Shown: one piece after another, positions 7,513-17,080 of the stretch | How the letters are laid out: the number at the start of each line of letters is the position of its first letter | How positions within the stretch are numbered: the first letter of the stretch is position 1 | From: Pseudochelatococcus lubricantis | GTDB taxonomy: Bacteria; Pseudomonadota; Alphaproteobacteria; Rhizobiales; Beijerinckiaceae | DNA: 64,000 nt | Direction of reading: 5' to 3' | Assembly (NCBI RefSeq): GCF_011762225.1 | Contig: NZ_JAASQI010000003.1 | Location: forward strand, 434,001-498,000 | Made by a program: the position numbers and the translations under genes | Notes under the pieces: generated by a model | Told to the model about the DNA's origin: nothing | What the model saw: the letters and a program-made list of their open reading frames with translations, nothing else | Database searches by the model: none

Positions 7513-7884
7513 GCCATCTGGCTTGGCTCTCCCCGGACACGCCTATACGAACGCCCCACAATCGCCAGTCTCGACGCTCAATCTCACCCACCTGATTCCG
7601 CTTTCAGCGGTTTGGGCGGGACCGGAACAGGGTGAGCATTTCAGCGCGCTCCCGCTATTTTCGGCGAGATCGAAGGCTCGACCCGGTTCCGCTTTAGCCG
7701 CCACGTCGGCAACGTGGGCCAGACTCTCGTCGTCGGCCCGACGGTGGGGGCAAGTTGGTGCTGCTCGCCCTCATGGCACCGCAGAGCCGCCGCGCAGGTC
7801 TTAGCTTTCGATTTCGGCGGCAGTAATATCTCACCTACTATCATCGAAAACTGCCCGACGCGGCTCCCGCTGTCGAAGGAGTAG
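7513..7884 (+). pseudogene. trbE: Degraded trbE/virB4-like conjugation ATPase remnant
   Basis: Three blocks of a TrbE (VirB4-type type IV secretion ATPase) can be read across frameshifts. The first block, 7513-7660, reads SGLALPGHAYTN then STLNLTHLIPLSAVWAGPE. The second, from 7663 in another frame, reads GEIEGSTRFRFSRHVGNVGQ and TLVVGPT, the start of Walker A. A third, from 7749, gives GKLVLLALMAPQ, the rest of Walker A one frame away, then AQVLAFDFGGS. The frame ends with PTIIENCPTRLPLSKE and a TAG at 7882-7884. TIIENCPTR belongs far downstream in TrbE, so a large internal deletion joined it to the Walker A region. These assignments rest on remembered family motifs. Confidence 0.78.
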
Positions 7885-7958
7885 GCCATCAAACTGCAGC
7901 CCACCGCCGAATATTGACGGTTTTGCCAAATCCATACAGGCCAAACCGTGCTCTAAAC

Positions 7959-9353
7959 TCACTGCGAACTATGATTCATACCTCCTTTTTTTAAATTACA
8001 AAGACGGTGAACTAACTGTGCATTTTCAGGAATTGTACGTCCGCCTCTCCAATACGCTAAATCATGATCAAGAGCCGCGTCGTCAATCATCGATATCTTT
8101 TGATTACAAATTCTGCATGTTTGATCTGCATCAAACATTTCTTTCTTTAGTTGGCGGGAAAACAGCCGTTTATCTGTGGGAGTGACCTTTTCGGACATGA
8201 TTTCAGCGAGACGTTTATTCCAAGTATCAAAAGTATAAAATAAACGAGTTGTTTCACCAGTAGCTCGCCGAACTCTATCAACCCACAGTTCATCACTGCT
8301 TATCATGTCAAGATATTCTTCATATATTGCGTCTGAATTCTTCGTAATTGATGCCAAATCATACTTAGCAAAAGAAGTTGCGATGACTTGAAAAATTGCA
8401 GCATTTGGTCGAGTTGACCACTCACCCGAACTTTTTGAATTTAGTTTCGCAACATCGCTTTTAAGCCTGTATGATGCATCCCCGAATACAGTTAAACATG
8501 CTTTCATACATTTTGAAAAAATTTTTCTATACTCTTCTATCTTTTCTATGTTTGCATTCCGATATACATCTAAAAATTCATTTAAAAATTTCTTTAAGCC
8601 TTTTTCGCATTTATAGTGCGTTCTTTCATAAAAAGCAAGAAAACGCAAAACAAGCGCGCGATCTTGCATCCTGTCTTTACTTCCTTTCTGATTTAAACTT
8701 TTCTTCATATCTGAATTATCTGACAGTTCCTTTAGCAGATTGTTTAGAGGCCCCCTATATAAGCAATTGCGTATTTCCATATCGTTTAATTTCACACTGC
8801 CAGTATTAATCCTTTCGAATACAATAAAATGCATATCGCCGGATGTGCTTGCCATCTCAAACGATCTAAGAAGCGAGTCTTCTAATTTATTTTGATATTC
8901 ATATCCTATATCTCTAAAATACTTTCCTGATATATTTGGTATTAACTCCATTTCTTGTAGTTTAAATTCGTTATCGAGAAACTTAAAAACTGTAGTTAGG
9001 CGCTGCAAACCATCAATAACCTCATATTTACCATCTTCTCTCTTTGCAAGGTAAATTACTGGAACTGGAATATCTATCAAGAAAGATTCTATGAGTTTTG
9101 ATGCTCTGTTCTTGTCCCACACGTAATTTCTTTGCCACTCTGGGTCGACTATTATGCGTCCATTCTTATGCCATCTATGAAGTTCGGACAGGCTTCTGTC
9201 CGCTTTTTCAAGTATAAATTTTCTATCTCCTGAAATAACCAAACTTCCTTCATCTGAACCGTCGAATTCTTCTTTATCATTATCTATTTCATCAAGATAA
9301 TTTTCAGATTCAGTTAATGTCTTTTTCGTCATTTCTGAAGTTCCATCCTGCAT
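7959..9353 (-). CDS. DUF262 and HNH nuclease domain protein (candidate GmrSD/BrxU-like defence nuclease)
   Basis: About 464 residues, markedly AT-rich and Lys/Asn/Ile-rich against its GC-rich surroundings. The N-terminal DUF262 (ParB-like NTPase/nicking fold) has PEWQRNYVWD (about residues 71-80) and VIDGLQRLTT (about 113-122), where DGQQR is the usual motif. The C-terminus is an HNH module: Cys413-x2-Cys416, Asp-His near 429-430, and Asn453-x2-Lys456. DUF262 partnered with HNH is the architecture of modification-dependent restriction enzymes such as GmrSD and BrxU, though those use DUF1524. It stands alone, opposite in strand to the trb remnants. Start is uncertain: TTG 9371, ATG 9353 or ATG 9332, none with a good ribosome site. 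Confidence 0.85.
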   Translation of the reverse strand: MQDGTSEMTKKTLTESENYLDEIDNDKEEFDGSDEGSLVISGDRKFILEKADRSLSELHRWHKNGRIIVDPEWQRNYVWDKNRASKLIESFLIDIPVPVIYLAKREDGKYEVIDGLQRLTTVFKFLDNEFKLQEMELIPNISGKYFRDIGYEYQNKLEDSLLRSFEMASTSGDMHFIVFERINTGSVKLNDMEIRNCLYRGPLNNLLKELSDNSDMKKSLNQKGSKDRMQDRALVLRFLAFYERTHYKCEKGLKKFLNEFLDVYRNANIEKIEEYRKIFSKCMKACLTVFGDASYRLKSDVAKLNSKSSGEWSTRPNAAIFQVIATSFAKYDLASITKNSDAIYEEYLDMISSDELWVDRVRRATGETTRLFYTFDTWNKRLAEIMSEKVTPTDKRLFSRQLKKEMFDADQTCRICNQKISMIDDAALDHDLAYWRGGRTIPENAQLVHRLCNLKKGGMNHSSQ

Positions 9354-9373
9354 TTTCGCTTGCCCATTCAAAT

Positions 9374-9395
9374 TCTATAGAAAGTACTCTATAGA
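9374..9395. promoter_or_regulatory. Tandem TCTATAGA palindromes upstream of the DUF262-HNH gene
   Basis: Two identical 8-base palindromes, TCTATAGA at 9374-9381 and 9388-9395, lie centre-to-centre 14 bases apart just upstream of the nuclease gene, with AAGTAC between them. Paired palindromes in this position look like an operator for a dimeric regulator, or AT-rich promoter elements. No regulator gene is next to it, so function is inferred. Confidence 0.4.
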
Positions 9396-9614
9396 TTTTA
9401 CTTTTATCAAAAATAGAGGCTGTCTCTCTCGTTTTATTAAACTTGCCGACTCCAGAGTGAGGAAAATGTATCAGTTCTTATAAGCCTCTGACACAATTTT
9501 CCACACAGCTGACCTCATGCGTGCCGGCAAGGTGGTGTGGAGCGGCCTCGCCGCTGGCCGCCCACTGCTCGGCTCCATTTCCAACCTGTTAGGCGACTGC
9601 AACTTTTAGAGAAT

Positions 9615-9752
9615 TCCATCCAGATCGCTTATACTGAGGCGCCGGCCCGCGAGAGCGGCCAGCCTGCCGCCGATCCCGTCAGGCTCATCGTGCCGATGCC
9701 GGAACGGTTCATCGCCATGGACCGCGGCTTCGCCAAGGCGCGGCGGGGCGCA
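9615..9752 (+). pseudogene. DUF2274 remnant (gene that follows trbI in trb operons)
   Basis: The frame at 9615-9752 reads AYTEAPARESGQPAADPVRL then IVPMPERFIAMDRGFAKARR. This resembles the C-terminal two thirds of DUF2274 proteins, small proteins encoded after trbI in Trb-type conjugation operons (family pattern AYAExLxRExGQP.DPxxLIxPMxxRFxAxDRxFAKARR). The normal N-terminal LKLGPLxxDKPVK segment is missing, so the gene is truncated. It is on the same strand as the trbE remnant, in the order expected for trbE to trbI-DUF2274. Bases 9396-9614 hold no gene I recognise. Confidence 0.6.
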
Positions 9753-9803: not shown

Positions 9804-10247
9804 TTACAATGCGCTTTCCTTACCCGTCAGCGCCTGATGCAAACGCCGAACCTCCCGGTTAAGGGCGATCATCTCTTCCGCCGCCATCCCGGCGTGGGCG
9901 AAAAGTGCTTCGCCAAGGCAGCGGCTTTCGGTCCGGAGATCGCGGCCGCGCGCTGTCAGCGCCACCAGAACCCCACGTTCATCATCCTGCCGCCGCGTCC
10001 TCGTGACCAGCCCGGCCGCCTCCAGCCGCTTGACCAGCGGTGTGATCGTGCTTGGCTCCAGATCCAGCCGGGTCGCGATCGCGCCGATACTGCGGCCGTC
10101 TTCCTCCCACAACACGTTCAGCACCAGATACTGCGGATAGGTGATCCCCAGCTGATCCAGCAGCGGCTTGTAGAGGCGGTTGATCGCCATGGAAGTCGCA
10201 TAGAGCGAGAAGCACAGCTGATCTTCAAGGGTCGGATTATAGCTCAT
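9804..10247 (-). CDS. ohrR: MarR family regulator, OhrR type (organic peroxide sensor)
   Basis: A 147-residue MarR-fold repressor with an N-terminal LEDQLCFSLYATSMAINRLY segment. Cys12 is the reactive-cysteine position of OhrR, and a second cysteine at 110 suggests the two-Cys (disulfide) type. The winged HTH spans IGAIATRLDLEPSTITPLVKRLEAAGLV. It is divergent from ohr, with an operator palindrome between them. In characterised OhrR proteins oxidation by organic hydroperoxides releases DNA and induces ohr. The ATG at 10247 gives the normal family N-terminus; a frame extending to 10304 would run through the operator. Confidence 0.92.
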   Translation of the reverse strand: MSYNPTLEDQLCFSLYATSMAINRLYKPLLDQLGITYPQYLVLNVLWEEDGRSIGAIATRLDLEPSTITPLVKRLEAAGLVTRTRRQDDERGVLVALTARGRDLRTESRCLGEALFAHAGMAAEEMIALNREVRRLHQALTGKESAL

Positions 10248-10266
10248 GGCTGTGCTTATCACGGAA

Positions 10267-10286
10267 TTTGTTATCGCGACAACAAA
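10267..10286. promoter_or_regulatory. Probable OhrR operator palindrome
   Basis: TTTGTTATCGCGACAACAAA is a 20-base inverted repeat with a single mismatched pair: the arms TTTGTT-(A/G)-TCG and CGA-(C/T)-AACAAA are centred on CGCG. It lies 19 bases from the ohrR start and just upstream of the ohr promoter, where a repressor could control both divergent genes. Assignment to OhrR is by position. Confidence 0.65.
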
Positions 10287-10290
10287 AAGC

Positions 10291-10317
10291 TGGACATGCC
10301 GCACCGATGCCTATACA
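10291..10317 (+). promoter_or_regulatory. Possible sigma-70-type promoter of ohr
   Basis: A -35-like TGGACA (10291-10296) and a -10-like TATACA (10312-10317), 15 bases apart, lie between the operator and the ohr start. The spacing is slightly short, so this is a tentative reading. Confidence 0.35.
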
Positions 10318-10365: not shown

Positions 10366-10791
10366 ATGTCAGTCCAGGTTCTCTACAGCACCAAGGCCAC
10401 AGCAGCCGGGGGCCGCGACGGCCAGGCCCGTAGTGAGGATGGCCGTCTTGAAGTCGGACTCTCCACCCCTCAGGAACTGGGTGGCGCCGGTGGCGCGGGC
10501 ACCAATCCCGAACAGCTCTTCGCAGCCGGTTACGCCGCCTGCTTTCTCGGCGCGCTCAAACTCGTGGCACAACGGCAGAAAGTGAAGATCCCTGCCGAGA
10601 CCGCAATCACAGCGACGGTGGGCATCGGGCCGCGCTCCGAGGGCGGTTTCGGCATCACAGCCGATCTTGAGATCAGCCTGCCAGGCATTGCGCGCGAGGA
10701 GGCGCAGAGGCTGGTCGAGGCGGCGCATCAGACCTGCCCTTATTCGAATGCCACCCGCAACAATGTCGCTGTCGGCCTGACCGTCCTGTGA
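10366..10791 (+). CDS. ohr: Organic hydroperoxide resistance protein Ohr (OsmC family)
   Basis: A 141-residue thiol peroxidase that reduces organic hydroperoxides. Both catalytic cysteines are present: Cys59 in AAGYAACFLGAL and Cys124 in HQTCPYSNATRNN. The SEDGRLEVGLSTPQELGGAG and TNPEQLFAAGY motifs are typical. The ATG at 10366 has AAGGAA at a proper distance; an ATG two codons upstream at 10360 abuts the ribosome site and is less likely. The gene is divergent from ohrR and followed by a hairpin at 10829. Confidence 0.96.
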   Translation: MSVQVLYSTKATAAGGRDGQARSEDGRLEVGLSTPQELGGAGGAGTNPEQLFAAGYAACFLGALKLVAQRQKVKIPAETAITATVGIGPRSEGGFGITADLEISLPGIAREEAQRLVEAAHQTCPYSNATRNNVAVGLTVL

Positions 10792-10928: not shown

Positions 10929-11426
10929 ATGTTCGGGATCTCTCCCCTGGGCTGGGTGCATACGCTTGGAAGCCTGCCAGCCATCCCGCTCGCAATCTGG
11001 ATGCTGGCCCGCCATGGGCGGATCGTGCCCCGATCCACGGCAGGTGCGGCCTATTTCATTTCTATGCTGATCGGCGGACTTACCGTTTTCCTGGTTGCGA
11101 AGCAGCCGGCGAGTAACGTCGCTGCGGCTGTAACCCTGGTGTTGCTCGTTGCCGGTTTCACCGTTGGTCGCCTGTCGGGACTGGGGCGTGCGGCCCGCTA
11201 TCTGGAGACCATCCTCCTGACCGTGACCGTCTTTCTGCTGCTGGTGCCATCGGTGTCCGAAACGCTGAGGCGCGTGCCGGAGGGGAACCCGATCGCGGCT
11301 GCTCCCGGCTCGCCGATCCTGTTGGGGGCGCTCGGCACACTGTTCGCGATGCTGATCGTCGCGCTGGTTGCGCAGGTCATATATCTGCGCAGGACAGACC
11401 GGCGAGCCAACACCCTTACGGGCTGA
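10929..11426 (+). CDS. Small integral membrane protein of unknown function
   Basis: A 165-residue protein with four predicted hydrophobic helices: around residues 6-26 (WVHTLGSLPAIPLAIWMLA), 38-60, 66-84, and a pair near 94-110 and 130-155. Its length and layout recall DUF2306/DoxX-like small membrane proteins, but I cannot assign a family. AAAGGAAG precedes the ATG at a good distance. It lies on the same strand as ohr, 137 bases downstream and past a hairpin, so it may have its own promoter. Confidence 0.7.
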   Translation: MFGISPLGWVHTLGSLPAIPLAIWMLARHGRIVPRSTAGAAYFISMLIGGLTVFLVAKQPASNVAAAVTLVLLVAGFTVGRLSGLGRAARYLETILLTVTVFLLLVPSVSETLRRVPEGNPIAAAPGSPILLGALGTLFAMLIVALVAQVIYLRRTDRRANTLTG

Positions 11427-11654
11427 CTTGTGAAGCGGTCTTCGGTTCAGATAGTCCGGGTTGCCGCCAGCGCCCGGACGCGAGGGCTGCTCGACCCGGA
11501 GCGGATCGCGGGACCGACTGTGCTGCGGGACTACGCCCAGGCCATGCATCTCGAATCGAAGCCATGACCGCAAGTTGTACACATCAGCCCCTGACCGGCG
11601 GACGCTGATAGCTACGAAACGAGAGAAATCCGCGTTCCCGGTTTTATACCGAAA

Positions 11655-11744
11655 TGGCGGATGGGGTGGGATTCGAACCCACGGACGGCTTGCACCGTCG
11701 CCGGTTTTCAAGACCGGTGCCTTAAACCGCTCGGCCACCCATCC
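11655..11744 (-). tRNA. tRNA-Ser (anticodon UGA)
   Basis: On the minus strand the sequence starts GGATGGGTGG, with acceptor arms GGATGGG/CCCATCC. Anticodon stem CCGGT/ACCGG encloses loop CTTGAAA, with TGA at 11708-11710. A long variable arm (GCGACGGTGCAAGCCGTC) is typical of class II serine tRNA, the T-arm has GGTTCGAATCC, and CCA is encoded. Its 3' end faces the mobile remnants at 7.5-9.8 kb, but no matching attachment repeat was found there. Confidence 0.97.
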
Positions 11745-12007: not shown

Positions 12008-12523
12008 TTATGCCTTGCGGCGGAGCCGGACGATGACGTCGACGCGCGCGACTTCCATGCCTTCCGGAAGGTCGGGCAGATCCGCGACCGAAAGCCCGGA
12101 GTCCGGAATGTCCACGAGGTCGTCATCCCCTTCGATGAAGAAATGATGATGGTCCGAGACGTTGGTGTCGAAATATGTCTTCGAGCCGTCGACCGCCAGC
12201 TCGCGCAGCAGACCCGCCTCGGTGAACTGATGCAGTGTGTTGTAGACCGTCGCGAGCGACACCGGCACGCGCGCCCGCGTCGCCTCCTCATAGAGCATTT
12301 CCGCCGTCACGTGGCGGTCGCCCTTCGCGAACAGAAGCCAGCCGAGCGAGATGCGCTGGCGGGTGGGGCGAAGACCGACGCGACGCAGCTCCTCGCGAAG
12401 CTGATGGACCGGGCACCCTTTGTGCATGCCCTGCGGCACGTTCGCGGCAACGAGCACCTCCGGCACCGGCGCTTCCTTCTCCGCCTGCCTCACCGTGATC
12501 GCCCTCACCTGTACATTGGCCAT
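12008..12523 (-). CDS. irr: Iron response regulator Irr (Fur family)
   Basis: A 171-residue Fur-family protein of the Irr branch found in Hyphomicrobiales, which controls iron and heme genes according to heme status. A Cys-Pro heme regulatory motif is present in GCPVHQL (Cys37-Pro38), and the histidine cluster SDHHHFF (His125-127) is the second heme/metal site. The DNA-binding region includes RPTRQRISL and VPVSLATVYNTLHQFTEAGLL. The ATG at 12523 gives the usual MANVQ-like beginning; a 12-codon N-terminal extension to 12559 cannot be excluded. It is divergent from the nicotinamidase gene. Confidence 0.92.
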   Translation of the reverse strand: MANVQVRAITVRQAEKEAPVPEVLVAANVPQGMHKGCPVHQLREELRRVGLRPTRQRISLGWLLFAKGDRHVTAEMLYEEATRARVPVSLATVYNTLHQFTEAGLLRELAVDGSKTYFDTNVSDHHHFFIEGDDDLVDIPDSGLSVADLPDLPEGMEVARVDVIVRLRRKA

Positions 12524-12809
12524 TCTCGTCAACTTCCGCTCGTCATCCAACAGAAACATACTTTATCATAAGAATGGTTTGCAATCAGTGCAAGCCGTTG
12601 CGCGACAAGGCGACCCGTTTCCCGCCTGCATTGGCCGCATGGCTTCGCCGCGGTTCCAGACCGGAATCCGCCATCATTATCCCGGCAACGGCGCGCCAAC
12701 GCAAATCACGCTTTCGCCATAACGCTCCGGAAACCGCGCCACGTGCTTGATCGACCGTCCGGCTCGACATAAATATTGCGCGATGTCGTGGCACCTTACG
12801 GGAAGCATC

Positions 12810-13448
12810 ATGGCGGCGAACCGGTCTGAACCCCTGTTGCTCGTGGTAGACGTGCAGAACGACTTTACGGCCGGCGGCAGCCTCGCTGTCAGCGACGGCG
12901 AAGCCGTAATCCCCGTCATCAACCGCGTTGCCCGGCATTTTGCCCACGTCGTCCTGACGCAGGACTGGCATCCGGTGGGGCACATCTCCTTCGCCTCGTC
13001 CCATCCCGGCAGGATGCCCTTCGACCGAATCGACATGCCCTACGGGCCGCAGACCCTGTGGCCCGACCATTGCGTGCAGGGCACACCAGGCGCTGCCTTC
13101 CATCCGGACCTCGACATTCCCCACGCGCAGCTCATCATCCGCAAGGGCTACCAGCCGGATGTCGACAGCTATTCGACGTTCTTCGCCGCAGACCGCACCA
13201 CACCCACCGGGCTTGCCGGCTACCTGCACGAGCGCGGAATCAAGAAACTGATGCTGGCCGGCCTCGCCACGGATTTCTGCGTTGCCTGGAGCGCCATCGA
13301 CGCCCGCAGGCTCGGTTTCGAGGTCGACGTGCTGGAGGAAGGCTGCCGCGGCATCGACATCGGCGGCTCGCTCGAAAAGGCCTGGCGGGACATGGCCGCA
13401 GCAGGCGTCGCGCGGCTGCCACCCGGCTCCACCGTTCCCGCCGCATGA
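12810..13448 (+). CDS. pncA: Nicotinamidase (PncA family isochorismatase-like hydrolase)
   Basis: A 212-residue enzyme that deaminates nicotinamide to nicotinate for NAD salvage. The catalytic triad is visible: Asp14 in LLVVDVQNDF, Lys112 in IIRKGYQPD and Cys157 in GLATDFCVAW. Metal ligands are in QDWHP (Asp52, His54) and DHCVQG (His87). The ATG at 12810 follows GGGAAGC; upstream in-frame ATGs would add an unrelated N-terminus. Pyrazinamide activation is a family trait. Confidence 0.94.
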   Translation: MAANRSEPLLLVVDVQNDFTAGGSLAVSDGEAVIPVINRVARHFAHVVLTQDWHPVGHISFASSHPGRMPFDRIDMPYGPQTLWPDHCVQGTPGAAFHPDLDIPHAQLIIRKGYQPDVDSYSTFFAADRTTPTGLAGYLHERGIKKLMLAGLATDFCVAWSAIDARRLGFEVDVLEEGCRGIDIGGSLEKAWRDMAAAGVARLPPGSTVPAA

Positions 13449-13645
13449 GAGAATGCCGACGGATGACGACAAAGCGCGATCACACGGAAATATCCTGCAG
13501 TGGATGCGACATAATTTACATCTTGCCGCATGAAACGGAGAGCGGTTAACTGAATCGTCACTTCGTGCCGAAATACTGTACGCATTCGGCTTCGCCAGCC
13601 TTCGCCGCATCTACCCGCCCGCGCACACTGGATTGGTCCTGAAAC

Positions 13646-14173
13646 ATGTCCCGACGCCTCATTCTGCTTCGTCACACCAAATCGGACTGGCCGGATGGCA
13701 TCGCCGATCACGAGCGCCCGTTGGGGCGGCGCGGCCTTGCCGATGCCCCGCGTATCGGCAGCTATATCGAAACGCACGGGCTGATTCCCGATTTCGCGGT
13801 CGTCTCGACGGCGCGGCGTACACGCGAGACGTGGGATCTGGTGGAGCAGGAGTTCAGCCGCTCCGTGCCGACCCGTTTCGACCGCCGCATCTACGAGGCC
13901 AAGCCCGGGGCGCTGCTCTATGTCGCACGCGAGACCGAGCCGTCCGTCGGCACGCTGCTGCTCGTCGGCCATAATCCGGGCTTCGAGGACCTCGCGCGCT
14001 TCCTGATCGGCAGCGGCAGCGAGGAGGCACGCGAGCGGCTTGCGCAGAAATACCCGACGGGTGGGCTTGCGGTGATCGATTTCGACATCGGCGACTGGCG
14101 CGACATCGAGACACGTTCGGGCTCCCTCAACCGCTTCGTCACCCCGCGCAGCCTTGCGGATGAAGAAGACTGA
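13646..14173 (+). CDS. SixA-like histidine phosphatase family protein
   Basis: A 175-residue histidine phosphatase of the SixA type. The phospho-accepting motif is LLRHTKSDW (Arg9-His10), and the second histidine is in LLVGHNPGFEDL (His109). SixA removes phosphate from phosphohistidine, for example on HPt domains or PTS proteins; the partner here is unknown. It ends 80 bases before the YcjX gene on the same strand, so the three genes 13646-16771 may be one transcript. Confidence 0.88.
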   Translation: MSRRLILLRHTKSDWPDGIADHERPLGRRGLADAPRIGSYIETHGLIPDFAVVSTARRTRETWDLVEQEFSRSVPTRFDRRIYEAKPGALLYVARETEPSVGTLLLVGHNPGFEDLARFLIGSGSEEARERLAQKYPTGGLAVIDFDIGDWRDIETRSGSLNRFVTPRSLADEED

Positions 14174-14253
14174 GCTTATGTCTGCGGCCGACACCTGTTT
14201 CGCTTTGCGGGCGGGCTGACAGAGAGGCAACAGACAGACAAACCGCCGGGCGC

Positions 14254-15708
14254 ATGGCCGTGACAGTCACTTCGTCGTTCGACAGCGCGCTCGACATGCT
14301 GCGCAATCTAGGTGCGTTCGCGGCCAACGCCGTTGCGCCGCGCGTGCGTCTGGGCGTAACGGGGCTGTCGCGGTCCGGCAAGACCGTGTTCACCACCGCG
14401 CTGGTGCATCATCTCATCGGGGTGACGCCGATGCCGGTGTTTCGCGCCTCGGCCGAAGGCCGCATCCGGCGCGCAATCCTCGACGACCAGCCGGACGACG
14501 CCGTGCCGCGTTTCCCCTACGAGGAACATCTCGCCACGCTCGGCGAGCCGCTGCGCCGCTGGCCGGAATCGACGACCCGCATCGCCGAGCTGCGCGTCGC
14601 CATCGACTACGAGCGCCGCGCCGGCTGGCGCACCGGGCCGGCCAGCCTCGCCGTGGATATCGTGGACTATCCAGGTGAGTGGCTCGTCGACCTCGCGCTC
14701 ATCGACAAGAGCTTCGCGGAATGGTCGCGGGAAACGCTGGCCATGAGCCGGGCGGAGGACCGTGCCATGATTGCCGCGCCCTGGCACGTGGCGCTGGCAG
14801 CGGTCGACCCGCAAAAGCCCGCCAGCGAGACCGAGATCGCGCGGCTTGCCGATCTGTTCAAGGCCTATCTCTCGGCCCTGCGCGAGGGCCCGGAGCGCGT
14901 CGCCACCACGCCGCCGGGGCGGTTTCTCATGCCCGGCGATCTCGCGGGCTCACCCGCCCTCACCTTCTCCCCGCTCGATCTCGCACCGGGCGCCGCGCCG
15001 GCGCCGCGTAGCGTGCATGCGCAGATGGAACGGCGCTACGACGCCTACCGCACACATGTTGTGCGGCCGTTCTTCCGGGATCACTTCGCGCAGCTAGACC
15101 GGCAGATCGTGCTCGTCGACGTGCTTTCGGCGCTGGATTCGGGGCCGCGCGCCGTCGCCGAGCTGGAGGAGGCGCTCGATCAGGTGCTCATCGCCTTCCG
15201 CGCGGGCAGCAATACGTTGCTGAGCAGCCTGGTCGCGCCACGCATTGACAAGGTGCTGTTCGCCGCCACCAAGGCAGACCACCTGCACCGCAGCGACCAT
15301 ACGCGGCTGGAGGCGATCCTGCGGCTTCTCGTCGACCGCGCCTTGCGCCGCACCCGAGGCGCCGGCGCGCGCGTCGAGACCCTTGCGCTGGCCTCGGTGC
15401 GTGCCACGCGGGAGGCAAGCGTGCGCTCGGGCCGCGACACTCTCCCCGCCATCGTCGGCACGCCGGAAGCGGGTGAGCGAATCGGGGACGAGCTTTTCGA
15501 CGGTCAGACGGAGGCCGCAATTTTCCCGGGCGAACTGCCGGAGGATCCGCAGGCCGTGTTCAGCGGCGCCATCACGCCCGGCGCACTGCGCTTTCCGCGT
15601 TTTCGGCCGCCGCTCCGCATTCCCGATGCCGCCGGCCGGTTGCCGCCACTACCCCACATCCGCCTCGATCGCGCGCTGGAATTCCTGATCGGCGATCGGC
15701 TTTCGTAA
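14254..15708 (+). CDS. ycjX: YcjX family P-loop NTPase (DUF463)
   Basis: A 484-residue GTPase-like protein. The P-loop is GLSRSGKT (residues 37-44), and VDIVDYPGEWL is the conserved switch region of the YcjX family. KVLFAATKADHLHRSDH carries the TKAD-type base-specificity motif. YcjX and the DUF697 protein encoded next to it form a conserved pair, in E. coli part of the phage-shock regulon, but their biochemical role is not established. The next gene starts 22 bases downstream. Confidence 0.93.
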   Translation: MAVTVTSSFDSALDMLRNLGAFAANAVAPRVRLGVTGLSRSGKTVFTTALVHHLIGVTPMPVFRASAEGRIRRAILDDQPDDAVPRFPYEEHLATLGEPLRRWPESTTRIAELRVAIDYERRAGWRTGPASLAVDIVDYPGEWLVDLALIDKSFAEWSRETLAMSRAEDRAMIAAPWHVALAAVDPQKPASETEIARLADLFKAYLSALREGPERVATTPPGRFLMPGDLAGSPALTFSPLDLAPGAAPAPRSVHAQMERRYDAYRTHVVRPFFRDHFAQLDRQIVLVDVLSALDSGPRAVAELEEALDQVLIAFRAGSNTLLSSLVAPRIDKVLFAATKADHLHRSDHTRLEAILRLLVDRALRRTRGAGARVETLALASVRATREASVRSGRDTLPAIVGTPEAGERIGDELFDGQTEAAIFPGELPEDPQAVFSGAITPGALRFPRFRPPLRIPDAAGRLPPLPHIRLDRALEFLIGDRLS

Positions 15709-15730
15709 ATTCCTGCCCGGCTATGTTGCG

Positions 15731-16771
15731 ATGACCAAAGCACCCCGCGCCTTCCGCCTCGACGCTCACACCGGCCAGGAAACACCCGCGCCGGACGCCG
15801 GCGAAATCCGTGAAACGCTGCTGTCGCAGGGCGACGTGCTGATGGAGGAACCCGAGAAGCCCGAGGGGGCGGAACCGGTTGCGCCGCCGCCGGCGCGCGG
15901 ATGGCGCACGCCCTGGCTCGGCCTGCTGCTGTCGGCGCTGGGTGGGCTCGCGACCCTGTGGATCGTGCTCGGAATCGAGCAGATGGTGTCACGGCTTATC
16001 GTCTCCGCGCCGGCGCTGGGATGGTTCGCGCTGGCGCTGGCGCTCGTCGCGTTGATCGCCTTCGCCGCTGTCGTCATCCGGGAGGCGTGGGGCGTGTTCC
16101 GCGAGAGGCGAATCGAATCGCTACGCCGCAAGGCCGTGACAGCCCGTGAAACCGATGACGAGGCCGCCGCCGCCGCCGTGGTGCGGGATCTCGTTTCGCT
16201 CTACGATTCGCGCCCCGAGACAGCCCGCGCCCGCGCCAACCTCGCCGCGCCCGGCGCTGACGCGATCATCGATGCAGCAGACCGCCTGACCATCGCGGAA
16301 CAGGAACTGCTCGCGCCGCTGGACCGCGCCGCTCGGCGCATCGTCGCCAATCAGGCCAAACAGGTGTCGATGGTGACCGCCGTCAGCCCGCGCGCCATCG
16401 TTGACGTCGCCTTCGTCCTCTACGCCTCCGCGAAGATGGTGCGCCAGATCGCGGCGCTTTACGGCGGGCGACCTGGCCTGTTCGGCTTTGTGCGCCTGTC
16501 CGGCAACGTGCTGTCGCATCTTGCGGTGACGGGGGGAATCGCGGTCGGCGACGATGTCATTCAGCAGGTGGTGGGGCTCGGCCTCGCCGCACGCCTTTCC
16601 GCGAAGCTGGGCGAGGGCGTGCTGAACGGCCTGCTCACGGCCCGTGTGGGCCTTGCCGCCATCGAGGTTTGCCGCCCGCTGCCCTTCATGTCCGTGGAAC
16701 CGCCCCGCTTCGGCGACGTCGCATCCGGACTTTTCGACCGCAACAGGCCAAAAGAGGAACAGGCCGACTGA
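15731..16771 (+). CDS. YcjF-like TIGR01620/DUF697 membrane protein
   Basis: A 346-residue inner-membrane protein paired with YcjX. It has a Pro/Glu-rich cytoplasmic N-terminus (to about residue 56) and two adjacent membrane helices near 59-80 and 94-118. A soluble helical region follows, with WRAV-like acidic/basic stretches. The C-terminal DUF697 region has a hydrophobic GGRPGLFGFVRLSGNVLSHL segment and SAKLGEGVLNGLLTARVGLA. Position directly behind ycjX is the family's standard context. Confidence 0.9.
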   Translation: MTKAPRAFRLDAHTGQETPAPDAGEIRETLLSQGDVLMEEPEKPEGAEPVAPPPARGWRTPWLGLLLSALGGLATLWIVLGIEQMVSRLIVSAPALGWFALALALVALIAFAAVVIREAWGVFRERRIESLRRKAVTARETDDEAAAAAVVRDLVSLYDSRPETARARANLAAPGADAIIDAADRLTIAEQELLAPLDRAARRIVANQAKQVSMVTAVSPRAIVDVAFVLYASAKMVRQIAALYGGRPGLFGFVRLSGNVLSHLAVTGGIAVGDDVIQQVVGLGLAARLSAKLGEGVLNGLLTARVGLAAIEVCRPLPFMSVEPPRFGDVASGLFDRNRPKEEQAD

Positions 16772-16870
16772 AGCGTTTTCAAGCAAAGTGGATACCGGTT
16801 TGCGTGAAGAAAGCGCGTAATATCAAAAACTTATAGCATTTCGGCGTTTCAATGAAATGTCGAAATTCTA
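16772..16870. repeat. Dispersed Hyphomicrobiales-type intergenic repeat
   Basis: Directly after the DUF697 gene come a GCGTTTTCAAGCAAAGTGG segment and ACCGGTTTGCGTGAAGAAAG, then AGCATTTCGGCG. From memory, near-identical GCGTTTTC-AGCGAAGTGG-ACCGGTTCGCGTGAAGAAAACGCG units recur between genes in many Rhizobiales genomes. GCGTTTTC and GAAAGCGC can pair as hairpin arms. The rest of the gap to 17080 has no recognised gene. Only one copy lies in this window. Confidence 0.5.
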
Positions 16871-17080
16871 TAGACACTTTCAGCATCAAGCCACTGCTCT
16901 ATCCAATTGTTGACGCATCGGAGTTATGCAGAAGCGGCACCCAACTTCCGGCTTGATGCGACCAGAGCGCCTGGCGAAAACTCACGAAAATCGATTGGCC
17001 GATGATTTTGGCCTGCAGCAGGGGCCGATTCCCTGTTTTCTGCCCTGACCATTCGCCGGCACCTTCCCGGGGATTGAAGC

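Follow-up and report, generated by a model that had tools for sequence, protein, structure and literature searches.

Integrative conjugative elements (ICEs) of the Tn4371 family have a transfer region with the gene order trbBCDEJLFGI, carry a tyrosine integrase, which by the family's definition is more than 70% similar to intTn4371, and insert into an 8-bp target, TTTTTCAT (PMC2789088). A similar order of trb genes is found in the type of element described below. Intact elements of this type, present in other genomes of the same bacterial order, consist of trb genes followed by a DUF2274 gene, a large serine recombinase gene and a tRNA gene. The recombinases contain Resolvase, Recombinase and zinc-ribbon domains (Pfam), and the genes encoding them stop at the 3' end of a tRNA gene, which is tRNA-Ser in L088, L090 and L093 and tRNA-Arg in L089 and L091. 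Membership of the Tn4371 family was therefore rejected for the element studied here, because its relatives carry a serine recombinase with Resolvase and Recombinase domains and end at a tRNA. A second group of relevant systems comprises GmrSD, BrxU and SspE, in which the DUF262 domain is an NTPase joined to a His-Me-finger nuclease (PMC10952713, PMC4619093).

The window, that is, the whole stretch of 64,000 nucleotides of Pseudochelatococcus lubricantis that was analysed, preserves the right end of a trb-DUF2274-type integrated conjugative element. The large serine recombinase gene of this element terminates at the 3' end of tRNA-Ser. Nothing more remains of the dead, eroded element than parts of trbE, trbL, the DUF2274 gene and the recombinase gene. 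An intact gene for a DUF262-HNH nuclease lies in the middle of the trb remnants, and a cassette of three further genes precedes the recombinase remnant. The explanation that we regard as very probable is that the right end of a dead ICE at tRNA-Ser stands here together with a stand-alone nuclease gene that arrived separately and with a MarR-OsmC cassette that was the element's original cargo. Deep erosion has left the element identifiable: less than 1 kb of its sequence remains, and the order of the pieces, combined with a 35-nt junction with the tRNA gene, gives both its type and its target. The case separates what the ICE brought from what came later. The relic is ordinary genome decay, and the clade of stand-alone DUF262-HNH proteins is the more interesting part.

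Table 1. Features of the element relic and its insert, in window coordinates (., no strand)
Feature	Coordinates	Strand	Evidence
trbE pseudogene, piece 1	7519..7821	+	TrbE aa 375-481; blastn 74.5%, E 1e-54 against L005
trbE pseudogene, piece 2	7810..7923	+	TrbE aa 698-735; tblastn E 3e-7, blastn 79%, E 1e-17
AT-rich insert	7924..9480	.	limits of trb homology, repeats, composition
DUF262 (GmrSD_N) + HNH nuclease gene (P0001), intact, 457 aa	7959..9332	-	Pfam, PADLOC, orthologues, Foldseek
trbL fragment	9484..9633	+	from TrbL aa 95; blastn 75-81%, E 1e-16 to 1e-17
DUF2274 gene fragment	9624..9752	+	aa 30-72; tblastn 81%, E 6e-19; blastn 90%, E 4e-36
MarR-family regulator gene	9804..10304	-	Pfam MarR 2e-16; 83% aa in Paracoccus aminovorans plasmid
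OsmC/Ohr-type peroxide resistance gene	10366..10791	+	Pfam OsmC 4e-18; 87% aa in P. aminovorans plasmid
Small membrane protein gene	10929..11426	+	no Pfam match; 74% aa in P. aminovorans plasmid
3'-end remnant of large serine recombinase gene	11484..11654	+	tblastn; about aa 442-486 and 542-560, in pieces
Right-end junction of the element, running into the tRNA 3' end (...CCGGTTTTATACCGAAATGGCGGA)	11627..11661	+	94% over 35 nt to L087
tRNA-Ser (TGA), inferred integration target	11655..11744	-	ARAGORN

Remnants of the conjugative element

The remnants of trbE, trbL and the DUF2274 gene, mating-pore genes of one operon, have kept their operon order and all lie on the forward strand. Each is short, and frameshifts, stops and two large deletions are found among them. 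The reference for blastn and tblastn was the complete trb operon on plasmid p2 of Paracoccus sp. TOH (L005); two complete trb operons of the organism's own genome (L006 and L007) were also used for comparison. The trbE remnant is far above chance and matches both of these resident operons as well. The first-pass annotation had described it as a TrbE-like ATPase gene broken by frameshifts and a large internal deletion, and had recognized a DUF2274-like fragment further downstream. Both identifications are borne out by homology searches (E 1e-54 by blastn for trbE; 81% amino acid identity over residues 30-72 and E 6e-19 by tblastn for DUF2274). In the trbE alignment, piece 1 is put out of frame by gaps of 2, 1, 1 and 11 nt, piece 2 has two in-frame stops, and about 650 nt, encoding TrbE residues 482-697, is deleted between the two. 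This deletion sits at an imperfect 12-bp repeat (GATTTCGGCGGC versus GACATCGACGGC, as read from the alignments).

Everything that a living operon has between trbE and DUF2274, namely trbJ, trbL, trbF, trbG and trbI, had been thought to be gone. This is correct for trbF, trbG and trbI, which are lost, and for trbJ, which has been replaced, but a fragment of trbL had been missed. TrbL residues 95-131 are matched by positions 9484-9594 (tblastn E 2e-7), and blastn prolongs the match to about 9630. Near that position lies the exact joint of a deletion of about 4 kb, which removed the rest of trbL, trbF, trbG and trbI and fused the trbL fragment to DUF2274. Other matches to TrbL and TrbK in the window were rejected as low-complexity noise.

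Mismatches to the Paracoccus operon at codon positions 1, 2 and 3 amount to 14, 17 and 38% for trbE piece 1, compared to 8-9, 7-8 and 21-40% for intact copies, and to 26, 17 and 33% for piece 2, compared to 4-9, 2-9 and 19-40%. The corresponding values are 26, 39 and 44% for trbL in the window against 3-15, 1-9 and 20-33% in other copies, and 25, 33 and 43% for DUF2274 against 7-20, 4-17 and 30-61%, although for these two genes the contrast is inflated because the alignments take in some non-homologous flanking bases. Judged by these patterns, with their excess of changes at the first two codon positions, the pieces evolved free of coding constraint.

The DUF2274 fragment shares 90% nucleotide identity over 104 nt with the Paracoccus plasmid operon. 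Within its own genome, it is only 73% identical to the two complete operons, compared to 89% for the third operon, a truncated one on contig C7. The relic thus belongs to a lineage other than that of the two complete resident operons. The fragment recurs in many genomes and was for this reason considered as a possible separate repeat. This was rejected, because at the inspected loci it is the ordinary gene that ends trb operons, except for a second copy at the Paracoccus locus. There (positions 15671-16565 of L005), a partial DUF2274 lies downstream of the intact one, and a small putative immunity gene is positioned between them.

The relic extends to the right as far as 11661, well past the coordinates of the first-pass annotation. 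The recombinase remnant retains two stretches of the C-terminal coding region and reaches 67 bits in blastn, compared to at most 26.5 among 100 shuffled sequences. The junction at its end is 94% identical to that of another element of the organism's own genome (L087, contig C7; G000:C7), and aligns with the elements L088, L090 and L093 at their tRNA-Ser 3' end. The reading of the locus as a decayed integrative conjugative element, made when neither recombinase remnant nor tRNA junction had been seen, is supported by both. In trbE, trbL, DUF2274, the recombinase 3' end and the tRNA junction, the window has the same order and orientation as the trb-type ICEs of the order (L088, L089, L090, L091 and L093). 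Unlike them, it contains only fragments, has a trb operon interrupted by a nuclease gene and is missing the left half.

The anatomy suggests that site-specific recombination placed the element at tRNA-Ser. The transfer and excision genes would then have been lost, and the other half may have been deleted or moved. A search for other genes of the element, covering the first 13 kb of the window and 10 kb beyond its left edge, found only trbE, trbL, DUF2274, the recombinase and tRNA end and a weak MarR paralogy, but no left half; within 74 kb around the relic, none of traG, trbB, trbC and trbD was found. When a second att site was sought, the tRNA 3' end was not found repeated, and a core of only about 6-8 nt would escape recognition.

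The AT-rich insert and its nuclease

The first-pass annotation had noted that a single DUF262-HNH gene of differing base composition occupies the opposite strand of the operon, and this description stands. The insert is about 1.56 kb long, contains one gene and replaces about 1.67 kb of the operon (the 3' end of trbE, trbJ, trbK and the 5' end of trbL). Its GC content falls to 34-36%, compared to 60% or more on both sides. No target-site duplication or terminal repeats were seen around it, and promoter-like sites within it are no commoner than in shuffled sequences. In all seven other trb loci compared (L005, L006, L007, L088, L089, L091 and L093), nothing is found between trbE and trbL beyond trbJ and trbK. 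By this comparison, the interval is not a usual site for cargo.

The encoded protein matches GmrSD_N/DUF262 (E 1.4e-27) and, with a CxxC pair, the PF01844 HNH domain (E 1.1e-4). Its best PADLOC matches are NsnA (residues 21-392, E 5e-83) and PD-T4-2_A. The first searches gave mostly relatives of 360-420 residues with about 30% identity, aligning over the DUF262 part only, and one full-length relative at 40% (G734). Scans with a single sequence found nothing, whereas the alignment of the nuclease with this relative, used as a query, retrieved eight orthologues that are 61-69% identical (L123-L130), or 61-68% when counted over the multiple alignment. They come from Gallionellaceae, Nitrosomonas, Zoogloea, Thiobaca, a planctomycete, an acidobacterium, a hydrogenedentote and Electronema, although some of these labels may be misbinned, because most of the genomes are assembled from metagenomes. 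Each orthologous gene has a GC content below that of its surrounding contig. The orthologue loci have no neighbour in common: most neighbours are metabolic or transport genes, and there are one IS1595-type transposase and one pair of FRG and SMC-ATPase genes. In the window, the only neighbours are the trb remnants.

Between the window copy and its orthologues, the mismatch fractions at codon positions 1, 2 and 3 are 0.31-0.35, 0.16-0.22 and 0.55-0.72. They resemble those between orthologues of similar identity, and the nuclease gene therefore looks alive; it is intact and evolves like its orthologues. No variation was seen among 13 sequences at D107, G108, Q110 and R111 or at the HNH residues C406, C409, D422, H423 and N437. 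Throughout the close clade, that is, in the window protein and the eight orthologues, the NTP-binding motif is IDGLQR; in the GmrS proteins and in the distant relative it is IDGQQR.

The AlphaFold2 model of the nuclease is moderate (pLDDT 71). In a Foldseek search with it, BrxU, a type IV restriction enzyme of the GmrSD family, was the only match in the Protein Data Bank below E 0.001 (E 3e-4, probability 1.00), with a poor overall superposition (TM 0.2); ParB and sulfiredoxin folds came next. Like GmrSD and BrxU, the protein begins with a DUF262 domain that has a DGxQR motif, continues with helices and ends in a nuclease of the His-Me-finger type. It differs from them in having the PF01844 HNH domain with its CxxC pair instead of DUF1524 (PF07510), and IDGLQR in place of the (I/V)DGQQR by which the GmrSD/BrxU proteins are recognized. 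It is not a strict member of the GmrSD group, since DUF1524 was not found by Pfam. NsnA, which we take to be the DUF262 protein of Menshen, matches the DUF262 part and the helices; this PADLOC name was not traced in open papers. In contrast to NsnA, the window protein has no partner gene alongside and carries its own HNH domain beyond the end of the profile.

By analogy with these enzymes, the nuclease is most likely a type IV-like restriction enzyme that works alone. The DUF262 domain would bind a nucleotide and sense foreign, probably modified DNA, which the HNH domain would cut. The orthologues point to a compact, stand-alone DUF262-HNH family with a patchy distribution across phyla, which is a candidate one-gene restriction system.

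Origin of the insert and the flanking genes

ICEs often carry defence genes, and the first-pass annotation had taken the locus for a decayed ICE whose cargo survived. The nuclease indeed lies between two element remnants and is intact while they are not. That it was the ICE's own cargo is nonetheless unlikely: the gene stands on the opposite strand inside an essential mating-pore operon and displaces the flanking trb sequence, which is missing; the seven other operons have no extra gene there; and its 61-69% identical orthologues are stand-alone, with no trb-type neighbours among the genes scanned at their loci. It is probably a separate arrival. The stand-alone gene would have landed in the trb operon with an accompanying deletion, either once decay was under way or earlier, its insertion then being what killed the element, and it may have been kept because it works alone. 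The latter timing, in which interruption of the trbE-trbL region abolished transfer and the rest then decayed, has a modest chance of being right. The insert lies exactly where the trbE 3' end, trbJ, trbK and the trbL 5' end are lost, but a single genome cannot separate this from insertion into an operon that was already dead, and the other deletions (within trbE, between trbL and DUF2274, and in the recombinase gene) would each inactivate the element too.

A wider proposal, to which we give little credence, is that the clade as a whole is a mobile single-gene form of DUF262-HNH, with IDGLQR, its own HNH domain and no partner, which inserts alone, also into mobile elements. Here it would have disarmed an ICE by settling in the mating-pore operon and would have given the host a modification-dependent nuclease. 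The notion that no ICE is involved, and that the trb pieces came with an integrated plasmid or through a small stray recombination, could draw on the closest trbE matches in annotated collections, which are on plasmids, and on the second att site not being found. It is highly improbable, because the recombinase 3' remnant and the tRNA junction agree in sequence, arrangement and orientation with the chromosomal elements from the same bacterial order.

In the preferred explanation, a dead ICE with a later nuclease insert, the MarR-OsmC cassette would be the original cargo, and it is a likelier candidate for ICE cargo than the nuclease. The cassette lies between DUF2274 and the recombinase remnant, and in the related element on contig C7 the same interval is taken up by accessory genes that encode a short-chain dehydrogenase and a TetR regulator. 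Its three genes stand together in the Paracoccus aminovorans plasmid too; no second element of the trb-DUF2274 type was found to carry the cassette.

The contig C7 element (positions 13669-16918 of L087, 279.7-282.9 kb of the contig) carries a second trb operon that is likewise incomplete. In it, trbG is truncated at its 5' end and lies immediately next to a LysR gene; then come trbI, DUF2274, the accessory genes and an apparently complete gene for a serine recombinase. The end of this recombinase gene matches the junction in the window, but no tRNA gene comes after it.

The tRNA-Ser (TGA) loci of two congeners are without the segment 11484-11661. Both genomes are rearranged here and gave no clean empty site, because neither has the tRNA-Ser gene or the left flank at that place. 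Core synteny with the congeners resumes at about 12.0 kb. The genus core at 12008-16740, with the genes for Fur, isochorismatase, a histidine phosphatase, YcjX and DUF697, is syntenic in both and stops just to the right of tRNA-Ser; to the left of tRNA-Ser, the gene order differs. A partly palindromic repeat of about 107 bp follows at 16768-16875. It has about 30 copies in the organism's own genome and dozens in each of the two congeners, and looks like a genus-wide element of the REP/MITE type.
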